Assembly: GCF_030412265.1 (NCBI RefSeq)
Contig: NZ_JAUHLN010000012.1
Location: 1-59,216 of the forward strand
DNA from: Fictibacillus terranigra
GTDB taxonomy: Bacteria; Bacillota; Bacilli; Bacillales; Fictibacillaceae
Direction: 5' to 3'
Length of the DNA: 59,216 bases
In this document: piece by piece, positions 1 through 59,216 of the stretch
How positions within the stretch are numbered: the first letter of the stretch is position 1
Layout: every line of letters begins with the position of its first letter
Notes under the pieces: model-generated
Databases searched by the model: none
What the model was told of the DNA's origin: nothing
Seen by the model: only the letters and a program-made list of their open reading frames with translations
Translations under genes and position numbers: made by a program

Positions 1-35
1 ATTGTAAAATCCCTGACTTACCTGGCTTTTGTTTG

Positions 36-77
36 GTTTTCAAAGAACATTTTGTTTGTGTCGCTCGTTTTAGCGAC
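36..77 (-). promoter_or_regulatory. rRNA operon leader: hairpin and boxA antitermination site
   Basis: On the minus strand a hairpin (GTCGCT at 60-65 paired with AGCGAC at 72-77) is followed by TGTTCTTTGAAAAC at 36-49. The latter matches the boxA element found in Bacillus rRNA leaders, where Nus factors load for antitermination. The element points out of the window to the left. It lies just downstream of tandem sigA promoters, so a minus-strand rRNA operon very probably begins beyond base 1. The 16S gene itself is not in the window. Confidence 0.8.
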
Positions 78-83
78 TTTCAT

Positions 84-113
84 ACTATACCATTTTGACA
101 ACCATCATGTCAA
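84..113 (-). promoter_or_regulatory. rrn P2-type sigA promoter
   Basis: The minus strand reads TTGACA (108-113), an 18-nt spacer and TATAGT (84-89). It sits immediately upstream of the boxA leader and downstream of a second promoter, the P1/P2 arrangement of Bacillus rrn operons. Confidence 0.8.
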
Positions 114-168
114 CAATTATTTTTGTTGTTTTTTCGTTGCCCATCACCGTCTCGTGGCGACAAGAAAT

Positions 169-198
169 AATATACCATGTATTGATTTCGAGTGTCAA
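169..198 (-). promoter_or_regulatory. rrn P1-type sigA promoter
   Basis: The minus strand reads TTGACA (193-198), an 18-nt spacer and TATATT (169-174), 85 bp upstream of the second promoter. The perfect -35 and the tandem arrangement fit an rRNA promoter. No terminator separates it from the small gene ending at 237, so some read-through from that gene is possible. Confidence 0.8.
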
Positions 199-236
199 CA
201 CTTTATTTTTAAAAAAAGAGTTCAATGGAATAAACC

Positions 237-458
237 TTAAGTATGGCTTTGTTTCCTTCTGCAGAACCGGGTGCATTCTGCAGGCGCAGCAAGCCTGGAA
301 AACAGTTTAAAAAGAACCTGATACCTTTCTTCCATCACCTTCATCACCAACTTATCCAGCCTGTCATCCTGCAGATCGAATAAGAGGTCTTCCATTTCTT
401 TTTTCAACAGATACTCGAATTCCTTTGCTTCCGTAAGATTCAGCATTAAGCCTATCAT
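237..458 (-). CDS. small conserved Bacillaceae protein of unknown function
   Basis: This is a 73-residue protein, mostly charged and predicted helical, beginning MIGLMLNLTEAKEFEYLL and rich in Glu/Lys/Leu/Asp. I recall small proteins of this pattern (MLNLTEAKELEY-like) next to pdaB in other Bacillus genomes, but no function is known to me. It has one C-terminal Cys pair region (CTRFC, residues 62-66) and no signal peptide or membrane segment. An AAAGGA sequence lies about 13 nt upstream of the ATG; an internal Met at residue 5 is an alternative start. It is divergent from pdaB and co-directional with the rRNA promoters that follow. Confidence 0.65.
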   Translation of the reverse strand: MIGLMLNLTEAKEFEYLLKKEMEDLLFDLQDDRLDKLVMKVMEERYQVLFKLFSRLAAPAECTRFCRRKQSHT

Positions 459-649
459 TCGACCACCATAGCTTTCCTTTATTTTTTGTTCTAAGCTATC
501 GTTCCCGCTCGCTTATTCTTCTATGTATATAAAAAGCCCTTCCCTGTCTGTGGTCTATCTCGTCCTCCCTCGACATATATATTTTTTAGCAGCTCTGGCT
601 CAGGAGACAAAAAAAGGTTCGGCTCAGTATACAGATTAGGGGGGACGGT

Positions 650-1411
650 ATGAAGTTTTTCATGATCGTAAACGGTAAAAAAGTGAAGCAGTATATGGTC
701 GTTGTGTTTGCTGCTTTCTTTGCCGCTTCACTTGCATTTATGGGACAAGAGCAATTATCTGTGTTTTCATCCAAGAATGGGCCCCGGGCCATTTATAAAG
801 GTGAGGAGAAGGGCAACAAAGTCGCGCTGACGTTTGATATCAGCTGGGGAGACAAAAGAGCTCTTCCTATCCTGGACGTCCTGAAGAAACAAGAAATCAA
901 AAATTGCACCTTCTTTGTTTCTGCCGCGTGGGCGGAAAGACATCCTGAAATAATGGAACGGATCGTAAAAGACGGCCATGAGGTCGCCAGTCTCGGCTAT
1001 CAATACAAGAACTACACCGATTGGAAAGATCCGCAAATTCGAAGAGACATCTTAATCGCACAGGAAAAAATAAAAAAGGTGTCGGGTAAAACAACGTCTC
1101 TGCTGCGTCCGCCCAACGGAAATTTTGATAAACGCGTACTTGAGATTTCGGAAAGGACACACCATTCCGTCGTACATTGGAGCATCGATACGAAAGACTG
1201 GAAAAATCCTGGAGTCGATGAAATCGTTCAAAATGCAACGGATCATGTAAAGCCGGGTGATATTCTTCTCCTTCATGCGTCCGATTCCGTGAAACAGACA
1301 CATAAAGCCCTTCCAGAAATCATCAGTAAATTAAAATCAGAAGGCTTTTCCTTTGTGAGCGTCGGTGAAATGATAGCCAACACTCAGGCTCACAGCCAGG
1401 AGGTCCATTGA
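650..1411 (+). CDS. pdaB: PdaB-type polysaccharide deacetylase family protein (sporulation)
   Basis: This is a 253-residue NodB-fold protein with an N-terminal membrane anchor (about residues 14-31). Family landmarks are visible: TFDISWGD (61-68), RPPNG (153-157), WSIDTKDW (177-184) and LLHASDS (207-213). In B. subtilis PdaB is needed to maintain the spore cortex. Canonical metal ligands are missing: the second Asp of TFDD is Ile, and the H-S/T-x-x-H motif is replaced by a Tyr/Asn-rich stretch (114-123). Classical deacetylase activity is therefore doubtful. The start follows a strong GGGGGG ribosome-binding site. The gene is transcribed against its neighbours, as in B. subtilis. The function call rests on similarity and synteny. 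Confidence 0.93.
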   Translation: MKFFMIVNGKKVKQYMVVVFAAFFAASLAFMGQEQLSVFSSKNGPRAIYKGEEKGNKVALTFDISWGDKRALPILDVLKKQEIKNCTFFVSAAWAERHPEIMERIVKDGHEVASLGYQYKNYTDWKDPQIRRDILIAQEKIKKVSGKTTSLLRPPNGNFDKRVLEISERTHHSVVHWSIDTKDWKNPGVDEIVQNATDHVKPGDILLLHASDSVKQTHKALPEIISKLKSEGFSFVSVGEMIANTQAHSQEVH

Positions 1412-1417
1412 AATCAT

Positions 1418-1444
1418 AAAAAAGCTTCCGCCATGGCGGAAGCT
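1418..1444 (-). terminator. intrinsic terminator of kbaA
   Basis: A perfect palindrome, AGCTTCCGCC-ATGG-like core (1423-1444), is followed on the minus strand by a run of six T. It lies between the convergent pdaB and kbaA genes. On the plus strand it is followed only by GAATTT, so it works best for kbaA and more weakly for pdaB. Confidence 0.85.
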
Positions 1445-1479
1445 GAATTTAATATCTGTAATTCAAGGCTTCCGACTTT

Positions 1480-2088
1480 TTAAGCGGAAGTTTTTGATTT
1501 TGCTCCTGCATTCTCACTAATAAGACGGTGCAGCATCAGAATCTGATAAATATTGCAGGCACCGAGCGCGGCGAACGCCATCCACATGGCACTCGGGGCA
1601 TTTGTTTTTAAAACGGGGACCCATTCTATCGTCGTGACGACAACGATAAAGAAGAGTGTGGGGACAAAGGCTCCCTTATTCGTTTGCTTTTGTTTAATAT
1701 AAGCCACAGCCAGTCCAAGAACCAGCAATCCGATCGGGATCAGGCTGTAGGATACAAGACTTTGTCCCGCTTTATGAAAGGCGGTATACCGCAAATAAAA
1801 CAAGTCAAAAAGTACAACGATAATAAGGACGATCTGTACACCATTCCAGAGGGACTGTGATTTAAATATCCCTAAACCGAACCGGTGAACCGTTAAATAA
1901 GCAAAAAAGCCCATCTGGCTGAACACGCTGAACAATGCGCCAAAGCCAACAAGACCGAGTATATAAATGAAAAATTCTTTCACACCCCCGCTTTGCGGAA
2001 ATTGTGAGATCAAACCCGCCACAATCGCACAGCCAATTCCTAAGAGCAACGTGGTTAAAAATAAAAAGACCCAGTTTCTTGACTTCAC
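1480..2088 (-). CDS. kbaA: KinB-signalling pathway activation protein KbaA
   Basis: This is a 202-residue integral membrane protein with about six hydrophobic segments and short charged loops. B. subtilis KbaA is a membrane protein required for activity of sensor kinase KinB, which feeds the Spo0 phosphorelay. I place the start at GTG 2086-2088 (VKSRNWVF), preceded at 7 nt by GGAGG. The frame stays open for 30 more codons upstream, but that extension is hydrophilic and has no good ribosome-binding site. Position between divergent gerD and convergent pdaB matches B. subtilis. There is no catalytic motif; assignment rests on the membrane pattern and synteny. Confidence 0.88.
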   Translation of the reverse strand: MKSRNWVFLFLTTLLLGIGCAIVAGLISQFPQSGGVKEFFIYILGLVGFGALFSVFSQMGFFAYLTVHRFGLGIFKSQSLWNGVQIVLIIVVLFDLFYLRYTAFHKAGQSLVSYSLIPIGLLVLGLAVAYIKQKQTNKGAFVPTLFFIVVVTTIEWVPVLKTNAPSAMWMAFAALGACNIYQILMLHRLISENAGAKSKTSA

Positions 2089-2122
2089 GTGATTGCCTCC
2101 AATCCGAATGTAACCGTTATCG

Positions 2123-2131
2123 ATTGTACCA
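2123..2131 (-). promoter_or_regulatory. candidate extended -10 promoter of kbaA
   Basis: The minus strand reads TGGTACAAT about 35 nt upstream of the kbaA GTG, an extended -10 with five of six hexamer matches. No good -35 is present, so this is tentative. Confidence 0.4.
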
Positions 2132-2238
2132 ATCCTCCCCCAAAAAAGCCATACTGTTTTCCTATATTTGTTCTGCATAAATCTTCATAAATCACCCACC
2201 CTAAAGGTAAGACCTAATAGAAAGGAGAAGGAGCAGAC

Positions 2239-2877
2239 GTGAAAAAAGCGTGGATCCCCTGTCTCTTCTGTTTTCTTCTTTTTGCCCTAAGCGCCTGTGC
2301 GCAAAATGAAGCACAAGGAAGCAATAACCAGAACATCGATTATGATGCAACAAAAAAGATGCTCGTGGATATATTAAAAACAGATGACGGCAAAAAGGCC
2401 ATTAAAGATGTGCTATCTGATGAAAAAATGAAAGAGCAGCTATTGCTGGATCAAGCATTAATCAAACAGACAATAGAGAAAGAACTTTTATCTCCGAAAG
2501 GCGAACAATTTTGGAAGCAAGCCTTCAAGGACCCGAAATTTGCTTCAGCCTATGCAAAAAGCATGAAGGCAGAACATGAAAAATTAATGAAAGGCCTAAT
2601 GAAAGACCCTGCCTATCAGCAACAGATCATGAACATTATGAAAGATCCCAAAATGGGTCAAGCATTATTGGACCTTGCGAATTCCCCGCAATATCGTAAA
2701 GAAGTAAAGAAAGTGATGATGGAAACCTTCGACAGCCCGATTGTGCGTGCCCAAATATCACAAATGCTGCAAAAAGCAGCACATGATGAAATTGACCAGG
2801 CTGCATCCAAGAAAGGACAGCAAGGCGGCGGGCAGCAGCAGCAACAACAGCAGGGCGGCGGAGGCGGAGGCCAATAA
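2239..2877 (+). CDS. gerD: spore germination lipoprotein GerD
   Basis: This is a 212-residue lipoprotein. The signal peptide ends in the lipobox LSAC with Cys20. The body is helical and Lys/Glu/Met-rich, with repeated 'MKDP' phrases around residues 121-140. The C-terminus is a low-complexity Gln/Gly tail (about residues 193-212). In B. subtilis GerD sits in the spore inner membrane and is needed for clustering of GerA-type nutrient receptors into the germinosome. The start is a GTG behind GGAGAAGGAG. It is on the opposite strand to its neighbours, as in B. subtilis. The polyQ/polyG tail is the unusual element; I do not recall it in B. subtilis GerD. Confidence 0.93.
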   Translation: MKKAWIPCLFCFLLFALSACAQNEAQGSNNQNIDYDATKKMLVDILKTDDGKKAIKDVLSDEKMKEQLLLDQALIKQTIEKELLSPKGEQFWKQAFKDPKFASAYAKSMKAEHEKLMKGLMKDPAYQQQIMNIMKDPKMGQALLDLANSPQYRKEVKKVMMETFDSPIVRAQISQMLQKAAHDEIDQAASKKGQQGGGQQQQQQQGGGGGGQ

Positions 2878-2880
2878 TCG

Positions 2881-2911
2881 AAAAAAACCTCGTACTGGAT
2901 GCAGTACGAGG
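2881..2911. terminator. terminator between convergent gerD and salA
   Basis: A 10-bp perfect stem (CCTCGTACTG / CAGTACGAGG, loop GATG, 2888-2911) is followed on the minus strand by seven T. On the plus strand a T-rich stretch follows. It probably serves both genes, most strongly salA. Confidence 0.85.
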
Positions 2912-2917
2912 ATTTCA

Positions 2918-3943
2918 TTATTTTACTTGGTCGATGACTTTTCGGGCAATATCTTCATACGCCCTCCCAAGGCGATGATCGGCAGCATAGACGCTAGGTG
3001 CAAAATCATCTTCGTTGATATCAGGCTGTCCGAGTGGAAGCTGGCCAAGCATTGGAATTCCAAGCTCTTCAGAAAGGCGCTCTCCGCCGCCCTTACCGAA
3101 TACATATTCTTTTTCTCCGGTCAGCCGGCTCTCAAAAAAGGCCATGTTTTCGATAACACCGATGATTTCATGATCCGTTTTTAATGCCATTGTGCCTGCT
3201 CTTGCTGCAACGAACGCTGCTGTGGCATGGGGTGTCGTAACGATGATTTCTTTGCATTTCGGCAGCATCTTATGCACATCTAGCGCCACATCTCCAGTTC
3301 CCGGGGGCAGATCCAGCAAGACATAGTCAAGGTCCCCCCACTCGACTTCACTAAAGAAGTTCATCAGCATCTTCCCGAGCATGGGTCCACGCCATATCAC
3401 CGGGGCATTGTCTTCTACGAAGAACGCCATGGAAATAACTTTTACGCCAAAACGCTCAACCGGCTGAATCGTTTCGCCCACTACTTTTGGACGTTCTGTA
3501 ATCCCCATCATATCCGGAACACTGAATCCGTAGATATCCGCATCGATCAGACCTACCTTTTTGCCGAGACGGGCCAGGGCAACAGCCAGGTTGACTGATA
3601 CTGTTGATTTTCCTACACCGCCTTTACCCGAGGCGATCGCGATAAATTCTGTTTTGCTTTCCGGAGCGAGCAGCGCAGGCGCCGCATTCTTGCTTCCCTG
3701 ACCAGATTTGCGCTGTTCGAAGCGGAGGCCAACCGACTCAAACCCTGCTCCTTTTAGAACATTAACAATCTCCTGCTGAAGCATCATCTGTTCAGGAGTG
3801 CCTGTTTGAGGCAGAGCCACCTTTAAGCTTACATAGCGTTCCTTTACTTTTATTTCTTGTATGGCCCCTGATTCTGTCAGGCTTTTATGTAGAAAAGGGT
3901 CTTGAATATGAGATAAAAGTTCAATTACTTTCTCTTCTGTCAT
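2918..3943 (-). CDS. salA: Mrp/NBP35-family P-loop ATPase SalA
   Basis: This is a 341-residue Mrp/ApbC-family protein. An N-terminal DUF59/MIP18-like domain (about 1-75) is followed by a deviant Walker A GKGGVGKST (106-114) and a MinD-like ATPase domain. The family carries Fe-S clusters or regulates transcription; B. subtilis SalA represses scoC and so raises protease expression. I see no C-terminal CxxC pair, so an Fe-S carrier role is less likely than a regulatory one. The start is ATG 3941-3943 behind AAGGAAGTG; fourteen upstream in-frame codons lack a ribosome-binding site. Confidence 0.92.
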   Translation of the reverse strand: MTEEKVIELLSHIQDPFLHKSLTESGAIQEIKVKERYVSLKVALPQTGTPEQMMLQQEIVNVLKGAGFESVGLRFEQRKSGQGSKNAAPALLAPESKTEFIAIASGKGGVGKSTVSVNLAVALARLGKKVGLIDADIYGFSVPDMMGITERPKVVGETIQPVERFGVKVISMAFFVEDNAPVIWRGPMLGKMLMNFFSEVEWGDLDYVLLDLPPGTGDVALDVHKMLPKCKEIIVTTPHATAAFVAARAGTMALKTDHEIIGVIENMAFFESRLTGEKEYVFGKGGGERLSEELGIPMLGQLPLGQPDINEDDFAPSVYAADHRLGRAYEDIARKVIDQVK

Positions 3944-3989
3944 GGTAAGACACTTCCTTCGGCATATATTCGATTTCATTTTCATATTC

Positions 3990-3998
3990 AGTATAGCA
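3990..3998 (-). promoter_or_regulatory. extended -10 promoter of salA
   Basis: The minus strand reads TGCTATACT about 47 nt upstream of the salA start. It is an extended -10 element (TGn plus five of six bases of TATAAT); the -35 is weak. Confidence 0.5.
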
Positions 3999-4027
3999 TA
4001 AAAGGCTTTTTTCGCAGAATCAGATGC

Positions 4028-4057
4028 AAAAAGGTGTAAGCCAGAGGCTCACACCTT
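4028..4057 (-). terminator. intrinsic terminator of cwlD
   Basis: A 12-bp stem with one mismatch (AAGGTGTAAGCC at 4031-4042, GGCTCACACCTT at 4046-4057) is followed by a T run on the minus strand. It begins within the cwlD stop codon. Confidence 0.8.
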
Positions 4058-4769
4058 AATCAGGTACTTTTTCTTTTGTATAGTAGCGTAAGATGCCTTG
4101 GTAAATGGACGCCGACACTTTCTGCTGATAAGACTTTGTTTTCAGCAGATCCCGCTCACTCGGGTTGGATAAAAAGCCCACCTCAACCAGGGTGGCCGGC
4201 AGTTTGCTCGTCCGCATTAAATAGATCCCATCAATGGACTTGGCAATACGGTTTGTGTTCTGAAGGTTGCGCTTCAACTCGTTCTGAATAAATTTTGACG
4301 CTGCTTCCCCACCTTTATCAGCGGGATTGAAAAATACTTGTGCTCCCCTCCATCTTGAGGAAGGCAACGCATTTAAATGGATACTTACATATAAATCCCC
4401 GTTGGAGCTATTGATAATTTCTTTGCGTTTTTTTAGATCATCCCATTTTCGGGCTCGGATTCGCCCAGAGTCTCTGCCGCTTAAATCCTTATCTCTTTCT
4501 CTCGTCATAATCACGAGAGCCCCGCATTCCTGCAAATAATCCCTCAGTTTAAGCGATATATCCAATGAGATGTCCTTTTCGAGCACACCATCGCTTCCAA
4601 CTGCCCCGCCATCCATTCCGCCGTGTCCCGGATCAAGCACAATGACTTTGCCTGATAACGGAAGGCTCCATGGTTTCCATGACCGGTTTTCGGAAAACTG
4701 AAACGTTAAGATAAATAACAGAAGGGTAAAACCTAAGGTAAAGGCAACTTGCTTCACCCGTCTCTTCAT
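4056..4769 (-). CDS. cwlD: N-acetylmuramoyl-L-alanine amidase CwlD
   Basis: This is a 237-residue Amidase_3 protein with an N-terminal hydrophobic export segment (about 8-24). Zinc ligands and catalytic residues are visible: DPGHGG (His49), LEKD (Glu64), SIHLNA (His131) and VEVGFLSN (Glu196). CwlD removes stem peptides from cortex peptidoglycan so that, with PdaA, muramic-delta-lactam can form; without it spores do not complete germination. A sigma-E-like promoter lies just upstream, consistent with mother-cell expression. It is followed directly by an intrinsic terminator. Confidence 0.96.
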   Translation of the reverse strand: MKRRVKQVAFTLGFTLLLFILTFQFSENRSWKPWSLPLSGKVIVLDPGHGGMDGGAVGSDGVLEKDISLDISLKLRDYLQECGALVIMTRERDKDLSGRDSGRIRARKWDDLKKRKEIINSSNGDLYVSIHLNALPSSRWRGAQVFFNPADKGGEAASKFIQNELKRNLQNTNRIAKSIDGIYLMRTSKLPATLVEVGFLSNPSERDLLKTKSYQQKVSASIYQGILRYYTKEKVPD

Positions 4770-4802
4770 TTTTGCCCCCTAATCAACAGACTTATATGTC
4801 TA

Positions 4803-4830
4803 TATATATGGGACAAGATGATGAATATAA
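4803..4830 (-). promoter_or_regulatory. candidate sigma-E promoter of cwlD
   Basis: The minus strand reads TTATATT (4824-4830), a 13-nt spacer and CATATATA (4803-4810). This is close to the sigma-E consensus KMATATT-N13/14-CATACAHT and lies about 35 nt upstream of cwlD. B. subtilis cwlD is mother-cell expressed, which fits. Confidence 0.45.
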
Positions 4831-4831
4831 C

Positions 4832-5272
4832 TTAATGCAGCTTCATTCTGTATCTTTTCTCTCCGTTCCAATACCCTTCCATCCACCAATGCTGGATATA
4901 CACTTCACAGCACATGTACAAAGACTCCATCATCTGTTCTGTTCCCCAGCACCAGAACTGCCAATATTCGAACAGGCTGTCCGTCAGTTCTTTTTCTCCC
5001 TGCTGGCTGCGTTTCTTAATGCCCTCAAGCGATTCCCCGTGATACGCAAACCGGCTGTACGCCGCTCCAAGCAAGTAGGCATCAATCGCCAGATCGATGC
5101 AGGCGTCTTCAATGTCCTGCTGATACAGTAAAGAATATTGAAAGAACGGCTGGTAAAGGCTTTGAAATTCCTTCTTGATCTTTCCCAGAGAAAGATCCCG
5201 CAGCACTTTTCTTTCATATTCCGCTTTTTTCGTACGCTGCTTCTCCCTAAATGTTGTAATCACAATCGCCAT
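4832..5272 (-). CDS. ybaK: DUF2521 family protein YbaK
   Basis: This is a 146-residue soluble protein, rich in aromatic residues and charged helices (for example WQFWCWGTEQMM near residues 104-115). It has no signal peptide, membrane segment or recognisable catalytic motif. It matches the YbaK/DUF2521 family that precedes cwlD in Bacillus; its function is unknown. ATG is preceded by AGAGGAT at about 6 nt. It lies upstream of cwlD in the same direction. Confidence 0.85.
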   Translation of the reverse strand: MAIVITTFREKQRTKKAEYERKVLRDLSLGKIKKEFQSLYQPFFQYSLLYQQDIEDACIDLAIDAYLLGAAYSRFAYHGESLEGIKKRSQQGEKELTDSLFEYWQFWCWGTEQMMESLYMCCEVYIQHWWMEGYWNGEKRYRMKLH

Positions 5273-5427
5273 CGTTTATCCTCTTCCCGCGCAGATGCGC
5301 CAATCACTATATCTATTTAGAATTGGGTTCACCCTTACCTACATCTTTTGCAAAAGAGGGAAGCATCATCCTGCGTAAATGATGGGAAAAAAAGCTGAAA
5401 AGTTGATTTCGAAGCAAACCAATTTTT

Positions 5428-5542
5428 TTACTCACCGTTATGTTACTGTTACTCACGGTTTGACCAAGGTTACTCACGGTTTTGCACAACTTACTCACGG
5501 ATATTTGTTTCTTACTCACGGTTTTAGTTAGTTTACCCACAG
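5428..5542 (+). repeat. 21-bp-periodic array of TTACTCACGG decamers (six units)
   Basis: Decamers start at 5428, 5449, 5470, 5491, 5512 and 5533, exactly 21 bp apart. Units 2-5 are TTACTCACGG; unit 1 ends CCG and unit 6 reads TTACCCACAG. The 11-nt spacers are not conserved. The period equals seven codons and two helical turns. Flanking positions one period away do not match, so six units is the whole array. The decamer resembles that of the array at the right edge of the window (shared form TTAC-N3-CGG). Confidence 0.95.
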
Positions 5543-5580
5543 AACCGATCGTTTCCTTGCCTAACCGCTGAAAAGAAATT

Positions 5581-5592
5581 AAACGATCGTTT
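5581..5592. repeat. 12-bp perfect palindrome AAACGATCGTTT
   Basis: This is a self-complementary 12-mer just downstream of the rpsI terminator. The half GATCGTTT also occurs at 5547-5554. It could be a protein-binding site; nothing else supports a function. Confidence 0.5.
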
Positions 5593-5604
5593 AAACCGGA
5601 ACAA

Positions 5605-5639
5605 CAAAAAAGACCCCCAACCAAAAATGGTTGAGAGCC
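5605..5639 (-). terminator. intrinsic terminator of rplM-rpsI
   Basis: The minus strand forms a 12-bp stem (5612-5639, with G-U pairs; arms GGCTCTCAACCA and TGGTTGGGGGTC) followed by TTTTTT. It starts 17 nt after the rpsI stop. Confidence 0.88.
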
Positions 5640-5655
5640 TTCGAAACGTTGAGAA

Positions 5656-6048
5656 TTAACGTTTTGAGAACTGAGGTGCACGACGAGCGCCTTTAAGACC
5701 GTATTTCTTACGTTCTTTCATACGAGCGTCACGAGTCAAGAATCCAGCAGCTTTAAGGTTGCCGCGGAACTCAGGATCAGCTTGTAGAAGAGCGCGAGAG
5801 ATACCATGACGGATCGCTCCTGCTTGTCCTGTATATCCTCCACCCTGAACAGTTACAAGAACATCGTAGTTGCCTTCTGTAGCTGTTTCGTTAAGGGGCT
5901 GTCTTACGATAAGTTTTAATGTTTCTAAACCGAAATATTCGTCAATGCTGCGACCGTTGATTACGATACGGCCATCACCAGGAACTAAACGTACGCGAGC
6001 AACGGAGTGCTTACGACGCCCAGTACCGTAATATTGTACTTGTGCCAC
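5656..6048 (-). CDS. rpsI: 30S ribosomal protein S9 (uS9)
   Basis: This is a 130-residue protein, the usual length. It shows the S9 landmarks [16 protein letters not shown] near the N-terminus and the basic C-terminal tail ending APQFSKR, which reaches the P-site tRNA in bacterial ribosomes. It starts at GTG behind GGGAGGT at 7 nt. It is co-transcribed with rplM, 18 nt upstream, and followed by a strong terminator. Confidence 0.98.
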
Positions 6049-6066
6049 GTGAATACCTCCCTTTTA

Positions 6067-6504
6067 TTATCCGCGTAATTCGTATTTTTCTGGCTTTTGT
6101 GCTTGATGTTGGTGCTCAGCTCCCGCATATACGTGAAGCTTTTTGATCATTTGACGGCCAAGGCTGTTCTTAGGAAGCATACCTTTGATCGCCAGTTCAA
6201 GCATTTGCTCAGGACGAGTTGTACGCATTTCTAATGCAGTTCTTGTACGAAGTCCACCTGGGTGTCCAGTGTGACGGTAGTAAATCTTGTCACTTAACTT
6301 TTTACCTGTAAGGTGAATTTTCTCAGCGTTGATAAGGATAACGTGATCCCCAGTGTCAACGTGTGGTGTGAAAGTTGGCTTGTGTTTCCCGCGAAGGATT
6401 GAAGCAACTTCACTTGCCAGGCGACCTAATGTCTTGCCTTCAGCGTCGATCAATAACCATTTACGTTCTACTTCAGAAGCTTTCGCCATGAATGTCGTAC
6501 GCAT
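6067..6504 (-). CDS. rplM: 50S ribosomal protein L13 (uL13)
   Basis: This is a 145-residue protein, matching B. subtilis L13 in length. It contains [17 protein letters not shown] near the N-terminus and [10 protein letters not shown] in the middle. I chose ATG 6502-6504 (MRTTFMAK), preceded by CAGGAGGG; eight in-frame codons upstream overlap that ribosome-binding site. L13 is an early-assembly protein of the large subunit. It is the first gene of the rplM-rpsI unit, with its own promoter and a structured leader. Confidence 0.98.
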
Positions 6505-6660
6505 GAATTTTCCCTCCTGTATCTTCATTCGCTAAATCGCTCAATTTTTTATGAATGCTGTCCAAACTCACAGTAAATTACGGTTCGCTGAACATTTTTG
6601 AATTACTAAACATTTCACCGAATTATCTTCCGGGGCAGGGAGATAATCTTAGAAATACCA
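6505..6660 (-). promoter_or_regulatory. L13-type leader of rplM
   Basis: This is a leader of about 155 nt between the promoter and rplM. It contains a 7-bp perfect stem, ATTATCT (6641-6647 on the minus strand) with AGATAAT (6622-6628), and further A/T-rich pairing nearer the gene. Firmicutes commonly carry an L13-binding autoregulatory leader here; I did not match the full consensus. Confidence 0.55.
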
Positions 6661-6666
6661 AAGAAT

Positions 6667-6695
6667 ATCTTATAACATATAAACAACGATGTCAA
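6667..6695 (-). promoter_or_regulatory. sigA promoter of rplM-rpsI
   Basis: The minus strand reads TTGACA (6690-6695), a 17-nt spacer and TAAGAT (6667-6672). It gives the rplM-rpsI pair its own transcript after the truA terminator. Confidence 0.75.
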
Positions 6696-6733
6696 GTGTG
6701 TCGCAAAATTTATCAGTTGATTTTTTATAAAAT

Positions 6734-6756
6734 CATATAAAATCACTTGGTGATTT
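6734..6756 (-). terminator. probable terminator of the ecf-truA operon
   Basis: The minus strand forms a 7-bp stem AAATCAC-CAA-GTGATTT (6740-6756), followed by a T-rich but interrupted tract. It begins about 10 nt after the truA stop. Confidence 0.55.
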
Positions 6757-6766
6757 TTTCAGAGCA

Positions 6767-7504
6767 TTAATAGGTCACTTGATATAAGTACAATCCGTGT
6801 GGCGGAGCGGTTTTTCCGGCAGCGCTCCTGTCTTTTTTCTTCAGCATCTCTCCGATTTCCTGCGGCTTGATCCGGCCCTGTCCGACATCGAGAAGCGTAC
6901 CGATCATGATCCGGACCATATTATACAGAAACCCGCTCCCACTCACTTTAAAAAGAATCTCGTCAGTCGACGTTTCCATCTGAAAGCTGTAGATGGTGCG
7001 TATCTTGTCCTCAACAGCGGAACGCGCAGAGGAAAACGATGTGAAGTCATGAGTACCCAAAAACATCCTCATCCCGTCTTCTAAAGCCCCATGGTCCAAA
7101 GAATAAGGAAAATGATAGGCATAGTTCCGGCGGAAAACATCAGGCTGCGGGCAGGTCAAAAGCCGGTAATGATACTCCTTTTTCTGGGCACTGAATCGTG
7201 CATGAAAATCGGGAGCAGCCGCTTCAACTTCGGTGATGCGGATATCACCTGGCAGCAGCGCATTCAATGCTTTCACCCAGCGCTCAGGAGCAATGGCCAG
7301 CGAGCTGTCAAAGTGGAACACCTGTCCAATCGCATGGACTCCTGCATCTGTCCTGCCAGAAGCCGAGATACGGAGTTCTCCGCCTTTATGCATTTTAGCA
7401 AGGCTTCGTTCTATCTCACTTTGTACCGTTCGTCCTTCCGGCTGCACCTGATAGCCGGCAAACAAGGTGCCATCATAACTTACGGTTGCTTTCCAGCGCT
7501 GCAT
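6767..7504 (-). CDS. truA: tRNA pseudouridine(38-40) synthase TruA
   Basis: This is a 245-residue protein of the TruA family, which isomerises uridines 38-40 in the tRNA anticodon arm. The catalytic Asp lies in GRTDAGVHA (Asp53). The substrate-binding basic residues and the C-terminal SGFLYNMVRIMIGTL motif are present. It follows ecfT by 19 nt in the same operon, as in B. subtilis. Confidence 0.97.
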   Translation of the reverse strand: MQRWKATVSYDGTLFAGYQVQPEGRTVQSEIERSLAKMHKGGELRISASGRTDAGVHAIGQVFHFDSSLAIAPERWVKALNALLPGDIRITEVEAAAPDFHARFSAQKKEYHYRLLTCPQPDVFRRNYAYHFPYSLDHGALEDGMRMFLGTHDFTSFSSARSAVEDKIRTIYSFQMETSTDEILFKVSGSGFLYNMVRIMIGTLLDVGQGRIKPQEIGEMLKKKDRSAAGKTAPPHGLYLYQVTY

Positions 7505-7523
7505 AGATCAAACTCCCTTAAGA

Positions 7524-8324
7524 TTAATGGGTTCGGAATACAAAAAGTACAGCGGCCAATGCGAGCAGGATGAGCAGAGCGGCTGTATCCCTTAATTTCC
7601 ATTCCAGAATGCGGAGCCTCGTCCTGCCTTCTCCTCCCCGGTAGCCGCGTGCTTCCATAGCGAGAGCCAAGTCCTCCGCACGTTTAAAGGATGAGATGAA
7701 CAAAGGAACCAGCAGCGGAACAAACGCTTTGACCCGCTCTTTTACAGGACCGGCTGTAAACTCTGCACCACGGGCCATTTGCGCCTTCATGATTTTCTCA
7801 GTTTCCTGCAGAAGTGTAGGAATGAAGCGAAGAGAAATAGACATCATGAGAGCAAACTCATGGACAGGCAGCTTGATTTTTTTAAAAGGTGCCAGCAAGT
7901 ATTCAAGGCCGTCTGTTATATCGATCGGCGTAGTCGTCAGTGTCAGCAATGAAGTGATGACCACGAGATAAACGAGACGAAGAGATATAAATACCCCTTG
8001 CTTCAACCCGCCTTCGTAAATCTTCAGCCAACCCAGACCGTAGATAACCTCACCTTGTTTGGTCATCAGGATATGAAGGATGAATGTAAAAATGACAATA
8101 AGAAAAATGGGTTTAAGCCCTTTATAGATATAACGGAGCGACACTTGAGATGAAAGCACAGAAACGACTGCAAAAATGCCGAGAAGCGCATAGGTCAGCC
8201 AGTTGTTAGCCAAAAAGACAATAATGATATATAAAAAGATGCTCAACAGCTTAGCACGCGGGTCCATCTTGTGAATGACGGAACGGCCTGGGATATACTG
8301 GCCGATGATTACGTTATCTAGCAT
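7524..8324 (-). CDS. ecfT: ECF transporter transmembrane component EcfT
   Basis: This is a 266-residue membrane protein with about five to six hydrophobic segments. It contains the two characteristic Ala-Arg-Gly signatures that couple to the ATPases (QMARGAE and MEARGYRGG). EcfT, EcfA1 and EcfA2 form the shared energising module for group II ECF vitamin and metal transporters, serving unlinked S-components. Its start overlaps the end of ecfA2 by 7 nt, with AAAGGAGGG as ribosome-binding site. Confidence 0.96.
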
Positions 8325-9190
8325 GATGGCCCTCCTTTTCTGAAGTCAGCTGCGATCGCTTTCGCTGTTTCTTCAATCGTAAAAGAGGAGAGTTTCACCG
8401 ATTGTTTCGTCAGTTCCTGCCATTTGAGCAAAAACTGCACGGTTTCCGGTACGTCCAGGCCAACCGCCTGGAGCTCATCCCGTTTTTCAAAGATTTGCGA
8501 TGGCGTGCCTTCAAGATAGGTTGCACCTTTATCCATCACGACGATCCGGTCGGCATAATATGCAGCATCCTCCATGGAATGGGTAACAAGGATGGTCGTC
8601 ATGTTCCGCTGATCATGAAGGGCACGGAACAAATCCATAATTTCTTTACGGCCCTTTGGATCAAGACCCGCTGTTGGTTCGTCCAGGATCAGTACATCGG
8701 GCTGCATCGCCAGAACACCCGCGATTGCAACCCGCCGCATCTGTCCGCCGCTAAGGTCAAACGGTGACTTTTGCAGTACTTCATCCGGAAGCCCGACCAG
8801 CTTAACCATCTCCCGAGCCGTTTTTCTTGCTGCTTCTTCACTCTCTCCAAAATTCATCGGACCGAACATGACATCCTTCTCAACCGTTTCATCAAATAAC
8901 TGATGCTCCGGGTATTGAAAAACGATGCCTACCCTTTTGCGAAGTGCCTTAAGCTGTTTCTTTTTCTCATTGGCGGCTATCGTTAGATCTCCTACCTGTA
9001 TCGTCCCTTCAGAAGGCTTCAGCAAGCCGTTGAGGTGCTGGATAAGCGTCGACTTTCCAGAGCCCGTATGGCCGATGACAGCGAGGAAACAGCCCGATGG
9101 TACTGATAGATTAACATCCTTCAGAGCAAGCCGCTCAAAAGGCGTCCCGGGCTTGTAGCGATGGGTCAGGTTGTTGATTTTAATGTCCAT
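8318..9190 (-). CDS. ecfA2: ECF transporter ATP-binding component EcfA2
   Basis: This is a 290-residue ABC ATPase. Walker A is GHTGSGKST (40-48), the Q-loop region is [12 protein letters not shown], the signature is LSGGQ and Walker B is [12 protein letters not shown]. The PEHQLF phrase is typical of EcfA/CbiO proteins. It pairs with EcfA1 as a heterodimer on EcfT. Its start overlaps the end of ecfA1 by 25 nt, indicating translational coupling. Confidence 0.96.
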
Positions 9191-10005
9191 AATGCACCCA
9201 CCAGCTCTTCCTGTGTTAAATGTTGTTCTTTTATGTCTATACCGTTTTCTTTCAATGCCAATCCGAGTTTAAGGGAGAACGGCAGATCCAGGCCGGCATC
9301 CAGCAATAACGCCTCGTTCTGGAATACTTCCCTTGGACTGCCCGTCGTGAGGATGGAGCCTTGCTTCATGACGATGACCCGGTCTGCGCGGACCGCCTCT
9401 TCCAGATCATGCGTGATGGAGATAACGGTAATCCCCTCTTCCTCGTTCAGCTGTTTCACTGTGTCGATTACTTCTTTCCTGCCCATTGGATCCAGCATGG
9501 ATGTCGCTTCATCCAAGATGATGATGGACGGCCTCTGGGCAATGATGCCGGCAATGGCGACACGCTGCTTTTGCCCGCCTGAAAGATGGTGAGGCTCACT
9601 CTCGACAAAATCCTGCATCTTAACTCGCTGTATGCTTCGCTCAATTCGAGAAATCATCTCCGCACGGGGTACACCGAAGTTTTCCAATCCGAATGCCACA
9701 TCGTCTCTGACGCTCGTCCCGACGAACTGGTTGTCCGGATTTTGAAAAACGATGCCTACCCGTCTTCTGATTTCCCATAGTTCTTGTTCATTCGTTGTCG
9801 TGTAATCCTCTACCTTGATCTCTCCTGAAGAAGGCAGAAGCAGCCCATTGAGCAATTTAGCCAGTGTAGACTTTCCGGACCCGTTATGGCCGACGATCGC
9901 CAGCCATTCTCCTTGGTACACCGAGAGGCTTAAATCCGCCAGCGTGGTTTTCTCCTCACTCGGGTACTGGAAGGAAACATTATTGACCGATATCAGTTCC
10001 TTCAC
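9166..10005 (-). CDS. ecfA1: ECF transporter ATP-binding component EcfA1
   Basis: This is a 279-residue ABC ATPase with Walker A GHNGSGKST (39-47), a NPDNQFVG Q-loop phrase typical of EcfA1, LSGGQKQR and IIILDEATSMLD. It begins at GTG 10003-10005 behind GGGGGAG; sixteen in-frame codons upstream run into an intergenic repeat and are rejected. It is first of the ecfA1-ecfA2-ecfT-truA cluster. I found no convincing promoter, so read-through from rplQ may contribute. Confidence 0.95.
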   Translation of the reverse strand: MKELISVNNVSFQYPSEEKTTLADLSLSVYQGEWLAIVGHNGSGKSTLAKLLNGLLLPSSGEIKVEDYTTTNEQELWEIRRRVGIVFQNPDNQFVGTSVRDDVAFGLENFGVPRAEMISRIERSIQRVKMQDFVESEPHHLSGGQKQRVAIAGIIAQRPSIIILDEATSMLDPMGRKEVIDTVKQLNEEEGITVISITHDLEEAVRADRVIVMKQGSILTTGSPREVFQNEALLLDAGLDLPFSLKLGLALKENGIDIKEQHLTQEELVGALWTLKSTT

Positions 10006-10026
10006 GCTATTCTCCCCCTCAGCTCT

Positions 10027-10134
10027 GGTGCCTGACACCATTTCGAGATGCATCTTTGTTTCTTCGATGCTTTCTTTGCCGTGCCAGGCACCCGATTGTT
10101 AAAAGAGGTGCCTGGCACTGTTTCTTCGATGCTT
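10027..10134. repeat. GGTGCCTGGCAC palindromic repeats with companion motif
   Basis: Three near-palindromes related to GGTGCCTGGCAC(C) occur at 10027-10039, 10081-10092 and 10107-10118. A 14-mer TTTCTTCGATGCTT appears twice, at 10059-10072 and 10121-10134. They fill the rplQ-ecfA1 gap. Similar TGCCTGGCA repeats are scattered in Bacillaceae intergenic regions, from memory. Confidence 0.75.
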
Positions 10135-10135
10135 A

Positions 10136-10209
10136 CTTTTTTATTTGGTGAATTTTTCACCAAATAAAAAAAGGGCAAGAAACGATCTTACGACCCTGTC
10201 CCGCCCTTT
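10136..10209 (-). terminator. terminator after rplQ, with a second long palindrome
   Basis: On the minus strand AAAGGGC (10203-10209) pairs with GCCCTTT (10170-10176) across a 26-nt loop, followed by a T run. Directly beyond lies a second hairpin with arms of about 17 bp (10136-10152 and 10156-10173). It ends the S10-spc-alpha transcript. Confidence 0.8.
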
Positions 10210-10217
10210 ATTCACTA

Positions 10218-10580
10218 TTAAACTAATTCGATGATGACCATTGGTGCACCGTCACCACGGCGAGGACCGATTTTAGCGATACGAGTGTAACCACCATTAC
10301 GCTCAGCATAACGAGGTCCAAGGTCACTAAATAGTTTTTGAAGTGCCTTTTGTCCTGATTCTTCGTTAGCTACTTCGTTTCGTACGAAACTTGCAGCTTG
10401 ACGGCGTGCGTGAAGGTCTCCACGCTTACCAAGCGTGATCATCTTTTCAACAAATTTACGTACTTCTTTCGCACGTGCTTCTGTTGTTTCGATACGATCG
10501 TTGATAATTAAGTCAGTTGCTAAGTCACGCAGCATTGCGCGGCGAACAGCGGAAACACGACCCAACTTTTGGTATGCCAT
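10218..10580 (-). CDS. rplQ: 50S ribosomal protein L17 (bL17)
   Basis: This is a 120-residue protein with the L17 opening [24 protein letters not shown] and the conserved RNGGYTRI phrase near the C-terminus. It sits near the exit tunnel of the large subunit. It is the last gene of the alpha operon, 86 nt after rpoA, and is followed by a strong terminator. Confidence 0.98.
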
Positions 10581-10666
10581 GTCTATTCCCTCCTTCTGTG
10601 CTTTTTGCAGACAGGGGCTGTTGCAAGAACAGTCACCTGTGAAAAAGCAAATTCTAGTCTGTCAGA

Positions 10667-11611
10667 TTAATCGTCAGCACGTAAGGAAAGCCCGAGCTCG
10701 TCAAGTTTTTCTTGAACTTCTTCAAGAGACTTCTTACCGAGGTTGCGAACTTTCATCATGTCTTCTTCTGATTTATTAGCAAGTTCTTGAACTGTATTAA
10801 TACCAGCGCGTTTTAGGCAGTTGTAAGAACGAACAGAAAGATCAAGTTCTTCGATAGTCATCTCAAGAACTTTTTCTTTTTGGTCTTCTTCTTTTTCAAC
10901 CATAATTTCCGCTTTTTGCGCTTGATCGGTTAGTCCGACAAATATATTTAAATGTTCGGTAATGATCTTCGCTCCAAGAGAAACCGCCTCTTCAGGACGG
11001 ATGCTTCCATCTGTCCAAATGTCAAATGTAAGCTTGTCATAGTTGGTCACTTGTCCAACGCGGGTATTTTCTACCTGGTAGTTTACACGTGAGATCGGTG
11101 TGTAAATTGAATCGACCGGAATGACTCCGATTGGATGATCATCACTCTTATTGCCTTCCGCTTGAACATAACCGCGGCCTCTCTTTGCATTCAGCTTCAT
11201 TTGGAAATGAGCGCCTTCCGCAAGAGTAGCAATATGAAGGTCCGGATTCAAAATTTCCACATCACTGTCATGTGTAATGTCACCAGCTGTAACGACTCCC
11301 TCACCTTGTACATCTATTTCCAATGTTTTATCTTCATCAGAATAAATCTTCATTGCAAGCTTTTTCAAGTTAAGGATGATCGTAGTAACGTCTTCTACAA
11401 CACCTTCAACTGTTGAGAATTCATGCAATACTCCATTAATCTGAATCGATGTAACAGCTGCACCAGGCAGTGAGGATAATAGGATACGACGTAAGGAGTT
11501 GCCCAGTGTAGTACCATATCCACGTTCAAGTGGTTCAACAACAAACTTTCCATATGTGGCATCGTCGCTGATTTCAACCGTTTCAATTCTTGGCTTTTCG
11601 ATTTCGATCAT
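10667..11611 (-). CDS. rpoA: RNA polymerase alpha subunit
   Basis: This is a 314-residue protein, typical for Bacillus. The N-terminal domain (about 1-230) dimerises and assembles beta and beta-prime, and contains the conserved [19 protein letters not shown] stretch. The C-terminal domain (about 245-314) binds UP elements and activators, with [16 protein letters not shown] and [11 protein letters not shown] visible. It lies in the usual place between rpsK and rplQ. Confidence 0.99.
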
Positions 11612-11784
11612 TCAACTAAACCCTCCTTCAAACGTCGAACCTCGACCGGACATGTACCCAGCCGAAATTCCCCAGTGGCATTCCCGACTTAAACAACTAA
11701 ATAGTGTTCTTCACCAAAACTAATAGTATACATACCCATTATAGACAGGCTATGCATACTTTATACCGCAGAGTGTAACTAAAG

Positions 11785-12183
11785 TTACACGCGGCGGCGT
11801 TTTGGAGGACGGCATCCGTTATGAGGAACAGGTGTAACATCGCGAATAGCTGTTACTTCTAAACCTACCGCTTGAAGGGCACGGATTGCAGCTTCACGGC
11901 CAGCACCAGGGCCTTTAACAGAAACCTCTAGTGTTTTCATGCCATTTTCCATCGCAGTTTTACCAGCAGTTTCAGCTGCCATTTGCGCTGCGAATGGAGT
12001 TGATTTACGAGAACCTTTGAATCCCAGGTGGCCAGATGTAGCCCAAGAGATTGCATTCCCGTGAGTATCAGTAATCGTAATAATCGTGTTGTTGAAAGTA
12101 GAACGGATATGCGCGATACCAGACTCGATATTCTTTTTGACACGACGTTTACGTGTATTAGTTTTACGTTGTTGCTTCGCCAT
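11785..12183 (-). CDS. rpsK: 30S ribosomal protein S11 (uS11)
   Basis: This is a 132-residue protein that lines the mRNA platform of the small subunit. Landmarks are [19 protein letters not shown] and the Gly-rich [13 protein letters not shown], ending [10 protein letters not shown] 7-bp perfect hairpin (GTGTAAC / GTTACAC, 11773-11790) overlaps the stop codon without a T run. It may protect the mRNA end or moderate transcription into rpoA, 173 nt on. Confidence 0.98.
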
Positions 12184-56617: not shown

Positions 56618-57685
56618 TTAAGCTTCTTCAAGTTTGATTCTTTCCCTTATTAGCGTTGCCCTTAGGATATCACGCTCATCAGGATTCAACATCTCATTCG
56701 CATAATGCTGTAAAAAGCCCGGTTGTGTAAGTATCATTAATTCATTTAATATGGATCGGGAAATCCCTATAATTATCTCAAGGTCAATTCCCAGCCTCAC
56801 ATCGGAAAGGCATTGTGCCGCTTCCTTCGATTGGATGATCCGGCTGTTCGCCAGCACTCCATACGACCTGAAGATCCGATCCTCAAGCTGGATCTTTAAA
56901 CCGTCCTGCAGGTTTTTTCTTGCCACTCTCTCTTGCTGAATGAGCTGAAGGACCACGCCCCGCAAATCCTCCACAATATCTTCCTCTGATTTCCCGAGAG
57001 TAATCTGGTTGGAGATCTGAAAGACATTTCCTTGAGCTTCAGTTCCTTCCCCGTATATTCCTCTCACCACAAGGCCCAGCTGGTTGATGGCCGGTATAAT
57101 CCGGTTCATTTGTTTCGTTAACACCAAAGCTGGGAGATGCATCATGACGGAAGCACGCAACCCTGTTCCGACATTCGTTGGGCAGCTGGTCAGATAGCCC
57201 CTTTCCTCATCAAAGGCATAATCCACCTTTTCCTCTATCCAATCATCCAGTCCCCCAGCAAGAGTCAACGCCTCATTCAGCTGAAAGCCTGGAAAAAGAC
57301 ATTGAATGCGGAGATGATCTTCTTCATTGACCATGATGCTCACTGACTCATCATGATTGAGCATCACCGCCCCGAATCTTGACTGCTCTGCAAGATGGGG
57401 ACTGATCAAGTGCTTCTCTACCAATACCCTTTTTGCCAGAGGTTTTAGCTCATCGAGATGAAGAATTTCAAATTCTCCAAAATTCCCGCTCCCTTGCTCT
57501 CTGCAGGCTGCTTCCAATGTCTGAATGACAGCCTCGGACTCTTCCTTGGAAGCCAAGTCGGGAAAATTAAACTTTTCGAGGTTTCGCGCCAGCCGAATTC
57601 TGCTGCTAAGGACAATGTCAGAGTCTGGTCCTTCATTCTTCATCCAGGGACTGATAGCTTCACTTATAAAATGTTCAAGTGACAT
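56618..57685 (-). CDS. mcsB: protein arginine kinase McsB
   Basis: This is a 355-residue phosphagen-kinase-fold protein. It shows [15 protein letters not shown] and [15 protein letters not shown]. McsB phosphorylates arginines, marks proteins for ClpCP and inactivates CtsR. It needs McsA, encoded 3 nt upstream. Confidence 0.97.
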
Positions 57686-57688
57686 GCT

Positions 57689-58225
57689 CTATTCCCCCTT
57701 TTCCCGGTTCTTCTGCTTTTCTAAAAGTCGAATTTGATCACGGGTCTCTGCCGCCTTTTCAAATTCCTCATTTAAAATATACTGCTGCATCGCCTGCTTT
57801 AATTTTTCCAATTCACGCCTCTCTTGAAGTCCGCTGCCAATCCGCTTTGGAATTTTTCCGGCATGTTTTGTATTGCCGCCGTGAACCCTCTTTAGTACCG
57901 GATCCAGCTTAGAATCAAAAACCTCATAGCAATGGCTGCAGCCAAACCTGCCCGATTTGGCAAACTGTTGGTACGTCATGCCGCATTTTGGGCAGGCCAG
58001 GACCGAATTTTGAGACAATCCTGCAGATGCCGCTCCCGAAATGGAAGGATCTCCATAAAGCAGACCAGAGAGCAGCTGATGAATAGAGAAAGTATTCGAC
58101 CCCGGAAGGAATTCTCCTTTTTCTTTTGCACAATGCTCACAAATATGGAATTCAGTTTTCTTGCCGTTTACAATTTTCGTAAAGTGTAAAGTGGCAGGCC
58201 GCTCATGGCATTCCTGGCAGTACAT
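57689..58225 (-). CDS. mcsA: McsB activator McsA, zinc-binding UVR protein
   Basis: This is a 178-residue protein with four CxxC pairs (CQEC, CEHC, CPKC, CSHC) forming two zinc sites, and a C-terminal UVR domain (about 135-170; EKLKQAMQQYILNEEFEKAA). It activates McsB arginine kinase and joins heat and heavy-metal stress. It lies 36 nt downstream of ctsR. Confidence 0.97.
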   Translation of the reverse strand: MYCQECHERPATLHFTKIVNGKKTEFHICEHCAKEKGEFLPGSNTFSIHQLLSGLLYGDPSISGAASAGLSQNSVLACPKCGMTYQQFAKSGRFGCSHCYEVFDSKLDPVLKRVHGGNTKHAGKIPKRIGSGLQERRELEKLKQAMQQYILNEEFEKAAETRDQIRLLEKQKNREKGE

Positions 58226-58261
58226 TATTTTTCCCTCCCTATTAATAAATGTGATATGTCG

Positions 58262-58732: not shown

Positions 58733-58753
58733 CCTGCTCCCCTCCCCTCTGAC

Positions 58754-58770
58754 TTTGACTATCTTTGACT
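58754..58770 (-). promoter_or_regulatory. CtsR operator
   Basis: The minus strand reads AGTCAAA-N3-AGTCAAA (two heptads at 58764-58770 and 58754-58760), matching the CtsR direct-repeat box. It lies 10-27 bp downstream of the -10, over the likely transcription start. Confidence 0.9.
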
Positions 58771-58780
58771 ATACACTTAT

Positions 58781-58810
58781 ATTATAGACGCATTTTCAGG
58801 ATTTATGCAA
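58781..58810 (-). promoter_or_regulatory. sigA promoter of the ctsR-clpC operon
   Basis: The minus strand reads TTGCAT (58805-58810), an 18-nt spacer and a perfect TATAAT (58781-58786). The CtsR operator follows immediately. Confidence 0.78.
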
Positions 58811-59108: not shown

Positions 59109-59216
59109 GTTACTTGCTGGGTTGTACGGTTTACGTGCGGGTTCGCTGCGTTTACGTGCGAATTTCGCCCGATTACATGCCACTTTGAAGCGTTTACATG
59201 CGGGAATGGACACTTT
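59109..59216 (+). repeat. 21-bp-periodic array of TTTACRTGCG decamers, cut by the window edge
   Basis: Units start at 59109, 59130, 59151, 59172 and 59193, exactly 21 bp apart. Units 2, 3 and 5 are TTTACGTGCG, TTTACGTGCG and TTTACATGCG; units 1 and 4 are degenerate. The last three bases of the window (TTT, 59214-59216) sit where a sixth unit would begin. Spacers of 11 nt are not conserved. Shifted by one base, the core fits TTAC-N3-CGG, as in the other array. Confidence 0.9.

Follow-up and report, generated by a model that had tools for sequence, protein, structure and literature searches.

Phased 21-bp repeat arrays behind genes in Fictibacillus, with other cores in scattered genera of its order

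The array beside rpsI

The window, by which we mean the whole analysed stretch of 59,216 nucleotides (contig NZ_JAUHLN010000012.1 of Fictibacillus terranigra), carries a six-unit array of short direct repeats between rpsI and a DUF2521 gene that we take to be ybaK-like. The features are as follows.

4832..5272, minus strand: DUF2521 gene, on the opposite side of the array from rpsI
5313..5681, minus strand: 122-aa open reading frame (ORF) crossing the array, with heptads like TVSKKQI; not regarded as a gene
5428..5553, plus strand: six-unit array, 21-bp units starting at 5428, 5449, 5470, 5491, 5512 and 5533
5533..5553, plus strand: last unit, without the conserved tail (consensus about AAAACACATCATTTTCATAAA) typical of Fictibacillus arrays; its spacer enters an inverted repeat
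5543..5592, strand not assigned: inverted repeat AACCGATCGTTT / AAACGATCGTTT
5606..5641, minus strand: hairpin followed by a T run, probable rpsI terminator, judged by eye
5656..6048, minus strand: rpsI (ribosomal protein S9), now reading toward the array
59110..59214, plus strand: second 21-bp array, units at 59110, 59131, 59152, 59173 and 59194, reaching the contig end

The core TTACTCACGG is exact at 5449, 5470, 5491 and 5512, with variants at 5428 (TTACTCACCG) and 5533 (TTACCCACAG). An earlier note on this DNA had described six decamers, four exact and two near copies, at an exact 21-bp period with zero phase slip and with unrelated spacers between them; re-reading bore out both points, the 11-nt spacers being variable and without obvious likeness or common sequence. 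In the window, the 21-bp-paired core pattern has five matches, where 100 dinucleotide shuffles average 0.00, and in the whole genome the strict 21-bp pair has 23 matches against 0 for a reversed control; together, these two comparisons exclude a chance origin of the six-decamer array. The earlier note had proposed a genome search for the core at 21-bp steps, and the 23 strict pairs are the recurrence that such a search returns. For the single word TTACTCACNG the same genome gives 58 matches versus 33 for the reversed control; the striking feature is the 21-bp pairing, not the single word. The window also holds a second array that the earlier note did not contain, at 59110-59214, where the cores read, in order, TTACTTGC, TTACGTGC, TTACGTGC, TTACATGC and TTACATGC, all variants of TTAC(T/G/A)TGC, and where the pair pattern has four matches versus 0.02 expected.

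We compared this position among seven Fictibacillus genomes, the window's own (G000) and six sister species (G001 to G006). In G001, G002, G003, G005 and G006, rpsI and the DUF2521 gene flank a YetF/DUF421-like gene (Pfam-checked in G006), which is gone from the rpsI site in G000. Because a repeat resembling the one at 5543..5592 stands 3′ of this DUF421-like gene in G003 and G005, the inverted repeat in the window is probably a remnant of the lost gene's terminator. A one-unit remnant, TTACTCACC, also follows the gene in G005 and is the sole trace of the window array in a sister. Since the gene is gone in G000, its 3′ repeat stays there and the G005 unit comes after the gene, the window array most likely stood formerly behind the YetF/DUF421-like gene, and a deletion would have brought it behind rpsI. 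The placement downstream of rpsI in the earlier note therefore holds for the present arrangement but appears secondary, as sisters have the YetF/DUF421-like gene in between. Sequence like the hairpin at 5606..5641 is found 3′ of rpsI in six sister species as well.

In G004 about 12.7 kb is inserted at rpsI, and the comparison of the window site covers the other five sisters. The 3′ end of rpsI is partly duplicated there, at a distance of about 12.7 kb (L227, 2072-15233), as if an integrative element had used the end of rpsI as its site.

Recurrence and anatomy

Arrays occupy at least 25 places in the window's own genome, the second window array excluded: 19 arrays, the loci L230, L231 and L219, L209, and two further places. 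An array unique to its locus, with no periodic relatives, is what the earlier note had named as speaking against its reading; such relatives turn up elsewhere in this genome as well as among the sister species. The degenerate core TTACTYRC is paired at 21 bp in six of the seven Fictibacillus genomes (the window's own and five of six sisters), with 70 matches in G000, 98 in G002, 8 in G003, 33 in G004, 5 in G005, 89 in G006 and none in G001, while its reversed control matched twice in G001, once in G006 and not at all in the other Fictibacillus genomes. G001 has another core, TGCGCGCGAA, likewise at a 21-bp step and once at the same chromosomal site as sister arrays. In that genome (L223, L233-L252) the pattern TRCKYGCG has 331 three-unit matches at 21 bp, those listed reading TGCGCGCG; the arrays run to 4-15 units, two spacer types often alternate in them, and many lie within longer dispersed repeats.

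The strict TTACTCACNG pair occurs in 4 of 120 genomes, the window's own among them. Wider searches covered 397 genomes of the order; they were fixed to given cores and miss arrays with others, and their tallies keep some matches outside Fictibacillus that resemble plain or coding repeats (for example in G290, G015, G064, G175 and several MAGs). With the own genus counted, three-unit TTACTYRC arrays were found in 12 genomes from 10 of 135 genera (control, one genome, G070) and three-unit TRCKYGCG arrays in 12 genomes from 9 genera (control, six genomes: G064, G065, G138, G152, G292 and G382); three-unit TTATCAAC arrays were found in 10 genomes from 8 genera (control, none). Among the matches listed, the carriers include Psychrobacillus, Neobacillus, Peribacillus, Kurthia, Ureibacillus and Metabacillus. 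Arrays at 21 bp with differing cores occur in scattered genera of the order, the cores by lineage being TTACTTGC, TTACTCAC, TTACTCGC, TGCGCGCG and TTATCAAC. By eye, several Psychrobacillus arrays have six units too, and some have 20-bp steps. None of the papers listed by searches of open-access PMC text described the arrays.

Two side observations concern these genera. In Psychrobacillus and Peribacillus (L130, L087), arrays are nested in larger tandem repeats with a unit of about 225-250 bp. In G041 (L063, 100-830), two kinds of roughly 21-bp array, of GTTGATAA and TTACTCTCGG type, adjoin upstream of a gene that looks, by eye, like a signal-recognition-particle helper.

Among 77 arrays fetched from Fictibacillus loci, a set that includes orthologues and whose counts are thus not independent, 57 have six units. 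Of 304 steps of up to 100 bp from one exact core to the next, 271 measure 21 bp and 296 a multiple of 21. The spacers behind the core fall into an A-type (AAA) and a T-type (TTT or TTCGACA), of which TTCGACA is the reverse complement of the 0A box (Spo0A). The two unit classes alternate above expectation, in 37 of 55 steps in G000 (p = 0.001), 54 of 72 in G002 (p = 1e-5), 30 of 35 in G004 (p = 3e-6) and 40 of 59 in G006 (p = 0.004), in arrays of at least four units with rrn-linked and some contig-end loci omitted and with many orthologues shared between G002 and G006. Unit positions 15-20 carry little information. The tail usually sits on the last unit, and no conserved left boundary was visible by eye. 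One locus of G000 (L010, 12300-12508) holds a tandem pair of arrays, the cores being TTACTTGC in one and TTACTCAC in the other, and both arrays finish in a tail-like end. The cores mismatch the DnaA box at several positions.

Neighbouring genes, conservation and site histories

The arrays have a preferred orientation relative to their neighbours. Where an ORF lies on the tail side, it points toward the array in 43 of 55 cases (60 arrays examined), and in 58 of 73 in a larger set from which array-crossing ORFs were dropped (77 examined); the non-tail side has no orientation bias (33 of 77 genes toward the array). For the TGCGCGCG arrays of G001, the neighbouring gene is in the expected orientation in 23 of 29 (31 examined). 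Fifteen of the 73 tail-side ORFs point away, four of them beside rrn operons that end toward the array. In G006, four rrn operons have their ends directed at an array, and with these four counted, 17 of the 20 arrays of that genome obey the tail-side rule. A strict search for a hairpin with an A/T run within 110 bp of 48 arrays of G000, G004 and G006 gave, on the tail side, terminator-like hairpins reading toward the array in 14 and away from it in 15; the far side had 6 and 7, and 88 control stretches had 4 and 4.

Origin clustering comes from one chromosome-scale sister genome, G006, whose main contig begins at dnaA. Its arrays are origin-proximal (n = 20, KS p = 1.4e-6; p = 1.7e-4 for the 16 non-rrn arrays), with a median distance of 0.119 of the half-chromosome, 16 of 20 within 0.25 and none beyond 0.6. 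In this genome 17 of 20 arrays also show the orientation expected from the replichore, which may simply follow gene orientation. In other genera, the few positions listed in large contigs are as a rule not near contig starts or ends.

Conservation was measured on 16 orthologous arrays of G002 and G006, a comparison that concerns this species pair, not the window array, and omits rrn-linked pairs. The two species differ at 5 of 736 core positions, 5 of 203 in the tail, 40 of 456 in the inner spacer and 382 of 3152 in the flanks (Fisher p = 9e-13 for core against spacer and 7e-30 for core against flank; the core/spacer ratio is 0.01-0.21 by bootstrap), a contrast that marks the array core as under purifying selection. 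Arrays were located through their cores, so that units with ruined cores are under-sampled, which can lower the core count; a further comparison of the two species agreed with these figures, and taking G006 as the reference leaves the core count unchanged (core 5/752, tail 5/208, spacer 39/468, flanks 381/3106). Among distant orthologues the contrast is weaker, on few sites, in G003/G004 (core 4/48, spacer 7/30) and in G004/G005 (core 2/32, spacer 4/18).

At one locus (L231, L195, L039) the arrays of G000 and G006 are identical, spacers included, beside diverged coding sequence, and the adjoining intergenic DNA is also unusually similar, which we read, tentatively, as local recombination. At the same locus G000 and G002 have a dispersed-looking sequence (CTCCTGCGGGACTAGCGGGACAGG...) 3′ of the array.

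Inner spacers of adjacent units have a similarity of 0.239 in G000, 0.245 in G002, 0.286 in G004 and 0.234 in G006, versus 0.277, 0.315, 0.255 and 0.306 between arrays. In three of these genomes adjacent units are thus no more alike than units of different arrays, in G004 slightly more, and one-unit duplication is not supported; the decayed 21-bp tandem duplication that the earlier note had considered as an adverse outcome has left no clear trace in Fictibacillus. Units two steps apart resemble each other beyond expectation in three of the four genomes, and a smaller excess persists within a unit class in G000 (0.377 vs 0.326), G002 (0.471 vs 0.383) and G006 (0.467 vs 0.373), which makes old two-unit duplications possible; in G004 the likeness is reversed (0.115 vs 0.263).

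Two sites, here called ywlG-like and prfB-like, were followed across species. The ywlG-like site has six TTACTTGC units in G006 and in G002, three clear units and one degenerate in G000, two in G004 and none in G005 and G003, and in G001 seven 21-bp units with a TGCGCGCGAA / TGCGCGCG core. The prfB-like site has six units in G006 and G002, a tail-like CATCATTTCATAAAA alone in G004 and G005, and none in G003 and G001. Target duplications were not seen by eye at either site. In G000 the prfB-like site (L209) holds an array down to two units beside an apparent insertion sequence, again by eye.

A putative phased binding array and its rivals

Phasing, genome-wide recurrence, a preferred orientation, selection on core and tail and, in one species, origin-proximal clustering are direct observations. 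With moderate confidence, we propose that the arrays act as dispersed double-stranded DNA elements behind transcription units, on whose phased sites a protein would load to make a polar block or anchor with an insulating or chromosome-organising effect. Each array offers about six copies of an asymmetric 8-10-bp site on one face of the helix (21 bp being two turns) and is closed on one side by a distinct tail; it is found chiefly downstream of a transcription unit's 3′ end, in an orientation fixed relative to that unit. A putative sequence-specific protein would load cooperatively along these sites, and the resulting polar nucleoprotein complex would most likely serve to insulate neighbouring transcription units, or to anchor or organise the chromosome, a role comparable to that of stoperators, BIMEs or RacA ram sites.

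The words are probably landing sites for such a protein, because they are near-constant between two close species whereas the letters between them drift. Judged from these letters, the element seems to need its core and its two-turn phase and hardly its spacers, and cooperative protein binding to one helix face would be the simplest reading. The preferred orientation behind genes, rrn operons included, suggests a polar block or insulator, and the bias toward the origin suggests a role in chromosome organisation. The earlier note had read core-only conservation at two helical turns as a binding array on one DNA face; core-only conservation, recurrence and selection on the core are as expected of such an array.

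Several known systems share parts of this layout. Plasmid iterons are direct repeats about two helical turns apart that are bound cooperatively on one face, and the arrays resemble them in their direct repeats at about two-turn spacing; unlike iterons, the window array has rpsI and the DUF2521 gene as its neighbours and no replication gene beside it, and 20 or more loci on the chromosome carry arrays. DNA uptake sequences form dialects of short words near terminators with lineage-specific variants, and the arrays share the short words and the lineage-specific variants but are phased clusters at tens of loci per genome. Stoperators are intergenic single sites of fixed orientation with group-specific variants. 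Cluster A mycobacteriophages carry many of them genome-wide, and the bound repressor, according to PMC9283540, also stops transcription elongation, the sequence being asymmetric. The arrays are like stoperators in an orientation tied to transcription (43/55, 58/73; 23/29 in G001) and unlike them in lying on the chromosome, next to rpsI and rrn among other genes, whereas stoperators lie in phage genomes with their own repressor and are single sites with a known binder, not six sites at two-turn spacing. Ram sites are single inverted repeats, in contrast to the phased direct repeats behind genes here. In B. subtilis, as PMC6593407 describes, they are bound by the DNA-binding, oligomerising protein RacA and are dense near the origin, a density that the arrays share in G006 (KS p = 1.4e-6), the one genome measured. 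E. coli BIME-2/REP elements (PMC6379681) are dispersed intergenic repeats like the arrays, but BIMEs consist of palindromic REPs whereas the array units repeat directly and gave no hairpin signal overall. In B. subtilis, RemA binds direct repeats whose periodicity is proposed to wrap the DNA around a ring of the protein; according to PMC8481266, these sites have a period of about 10 bp (7 protected + 3) and are poorly conserved, whereas the arrays have a 21-bp period and are strictly conserved, and RemA sites are ruled out by period and conservation as given there. A CRISPR array was likewise rejected: the repeat is 8-10 bp and not about 20 or more, the spacer is 11-13 bp, and spacer classes are common to several arrays.

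The lineage-specific cores would fit co-evolution with a putative binder. A broader version of the binding-array reading, which we consider possible yet somewhat doubtful, is that Bacillales carry "dialect" arrays of about six asymmetric two-turn sites behind transcription units, read by one protein family whose specificity shifts while the 21-bp architecture and some positions stay; the polar complex that it would form, insulating or anchoring, would shape the chromosome near the origin. Were one factor to read the arrays, they would be an unrecognised chromosomal signal in part of Bacillales, on a par with the REP/BIME elements of enterics. The specificity of that factor would have shifted several times, with matching changes in its sites, a rare natural experiment in protein-DNA co-evolution; and transcription-unit ends, supercoiling and origin placement could be linked.

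The most probable rival, though we think it unlikely, is a short element, either non-autonomous or selfish, which disperses and inserts by terminators in a fixed orientation, the array being its body and the core the target of a transposase or recombinase. Many G001 arrays lie within longer dispersed repeats whose left and right flanks are alike by eye, the ywlG-like site occurs filled, shortened or empty (7, 6, 6, 4, 2, 0 and 0 units across the seven genomes), and the arrays have a preferred orientation relative to the neighbouring gene. However, recent copies should share spacers, and similarity between non-rrn Fictibacillus arrays is low (0.26-0.32); neutral cores should decay at the flank rate, and they do not (5/736 vs 382/3152); and the two sites compared lack a target duplication by eye. 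The short-unit insertion system that the earlier note had offered as its second option is not clearly supported, although unit numbers at one site do vary between species.

A decidedly less probable proposal is an RNA-level device, in which transcribed repeats would bind a protein or small RNA, or would form a Rho-type terminator that keeps antisense transcripts out of the neighbouring gene. The strand asymmetry of the arrays, their place at gene ends and the enrichment of terminator-like hairpins beside the tail agree with it. Against it, RNA folding gave no overall signal on either strand (mean z -0.05 and 0.37 for 50 of 56 arrays; z < -2 in 3/50 and 0/50), Rfam had no match in window positions 1-12000 or 57500-59216, and two-turn DNA phasing is unneeded for an RNA motif, although a protein oligomer on RNA might use it.

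Intrinsic DNA shape, with phased bends that favour gyrase or HU-like wrapping and no sequence-specific recognition, seems to us improbable. AT content in the arrays is periodic at 10.5 bp (power 2.12 vs 0.49 in flanks), and predicted curvature, computed with assumed parameters and compared with 21-bp-periodic column permutations, exceeds the control in Fictibacillus (113 degrees vs 60; fraction 0.015), Neobacillus (98 vs 48; 0.020; 5 stretches) and Peribacillus (125 vs 50; 0.000; 28 stretches at 9 loci). In its favour, too, PMC6379681 describes a gyrase motif, GC-phased at 10 bp, as well as enrichment downstream of operons with high transcription. The curvature excess fails, however, in G001 (7 stretches, 0.36) and Psychrobacillus (10 stretches, 0.62), and curvature is therefore not a common property of the arrays; the 10.5-bp dinucleotide signal is marginal in Fictibacillus (0.06), absent in Psychrobacillus (0.44) and present in G001 (0.01). 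Shape alone would not, moreover, fix TTACTTGC letter by letter. Intrinsic bending may help array function.

An encoded heptad-repeat peptide (21 bp being seven codons) is very improbable and largely refuted by the sequence. In its favour, the period is a multiple of three, the 122-aa frame is open across the window array, and plus frames 0 and 2 seemed stop-poor against spacer shuffles (14 of 56 stop-bearing arrays vs 41.5, and 12 of 56 vs 40.2) and free column permutation (12 vs 22.6 and 15 vs 35.7 stops), but this depletion vanished once the control kept unit classes (plus-frame stops 14, 54 and 17 vs 14.2, 47.9 and 20.6), one minus frame is stopped in all 56 arrays, and Psychrobacillus arrays have 20-bp steps. 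No Pfam family matched the 122-aa ORF.

A decayed ordinary 21-bp tandem duplication deserves next to no credence for Fictibacillus, where G000, G002, G004 and G006 show no clear sign of one-unit duplication (adjacent units exceed units of different arrays in likeness in G004 alone, and there slightly, 0.286 vs 0.255) and constraint is confined to the core, even though alternate units are somewhat more alike in three genomes and homogeneous, duplicated-looking arrays in G001 and some other genera may have arisen in that way. At the least, the 21-bp arrays should be masked, since they can yield spurious repeat-protein ORFs such as the one at 5313..5681.
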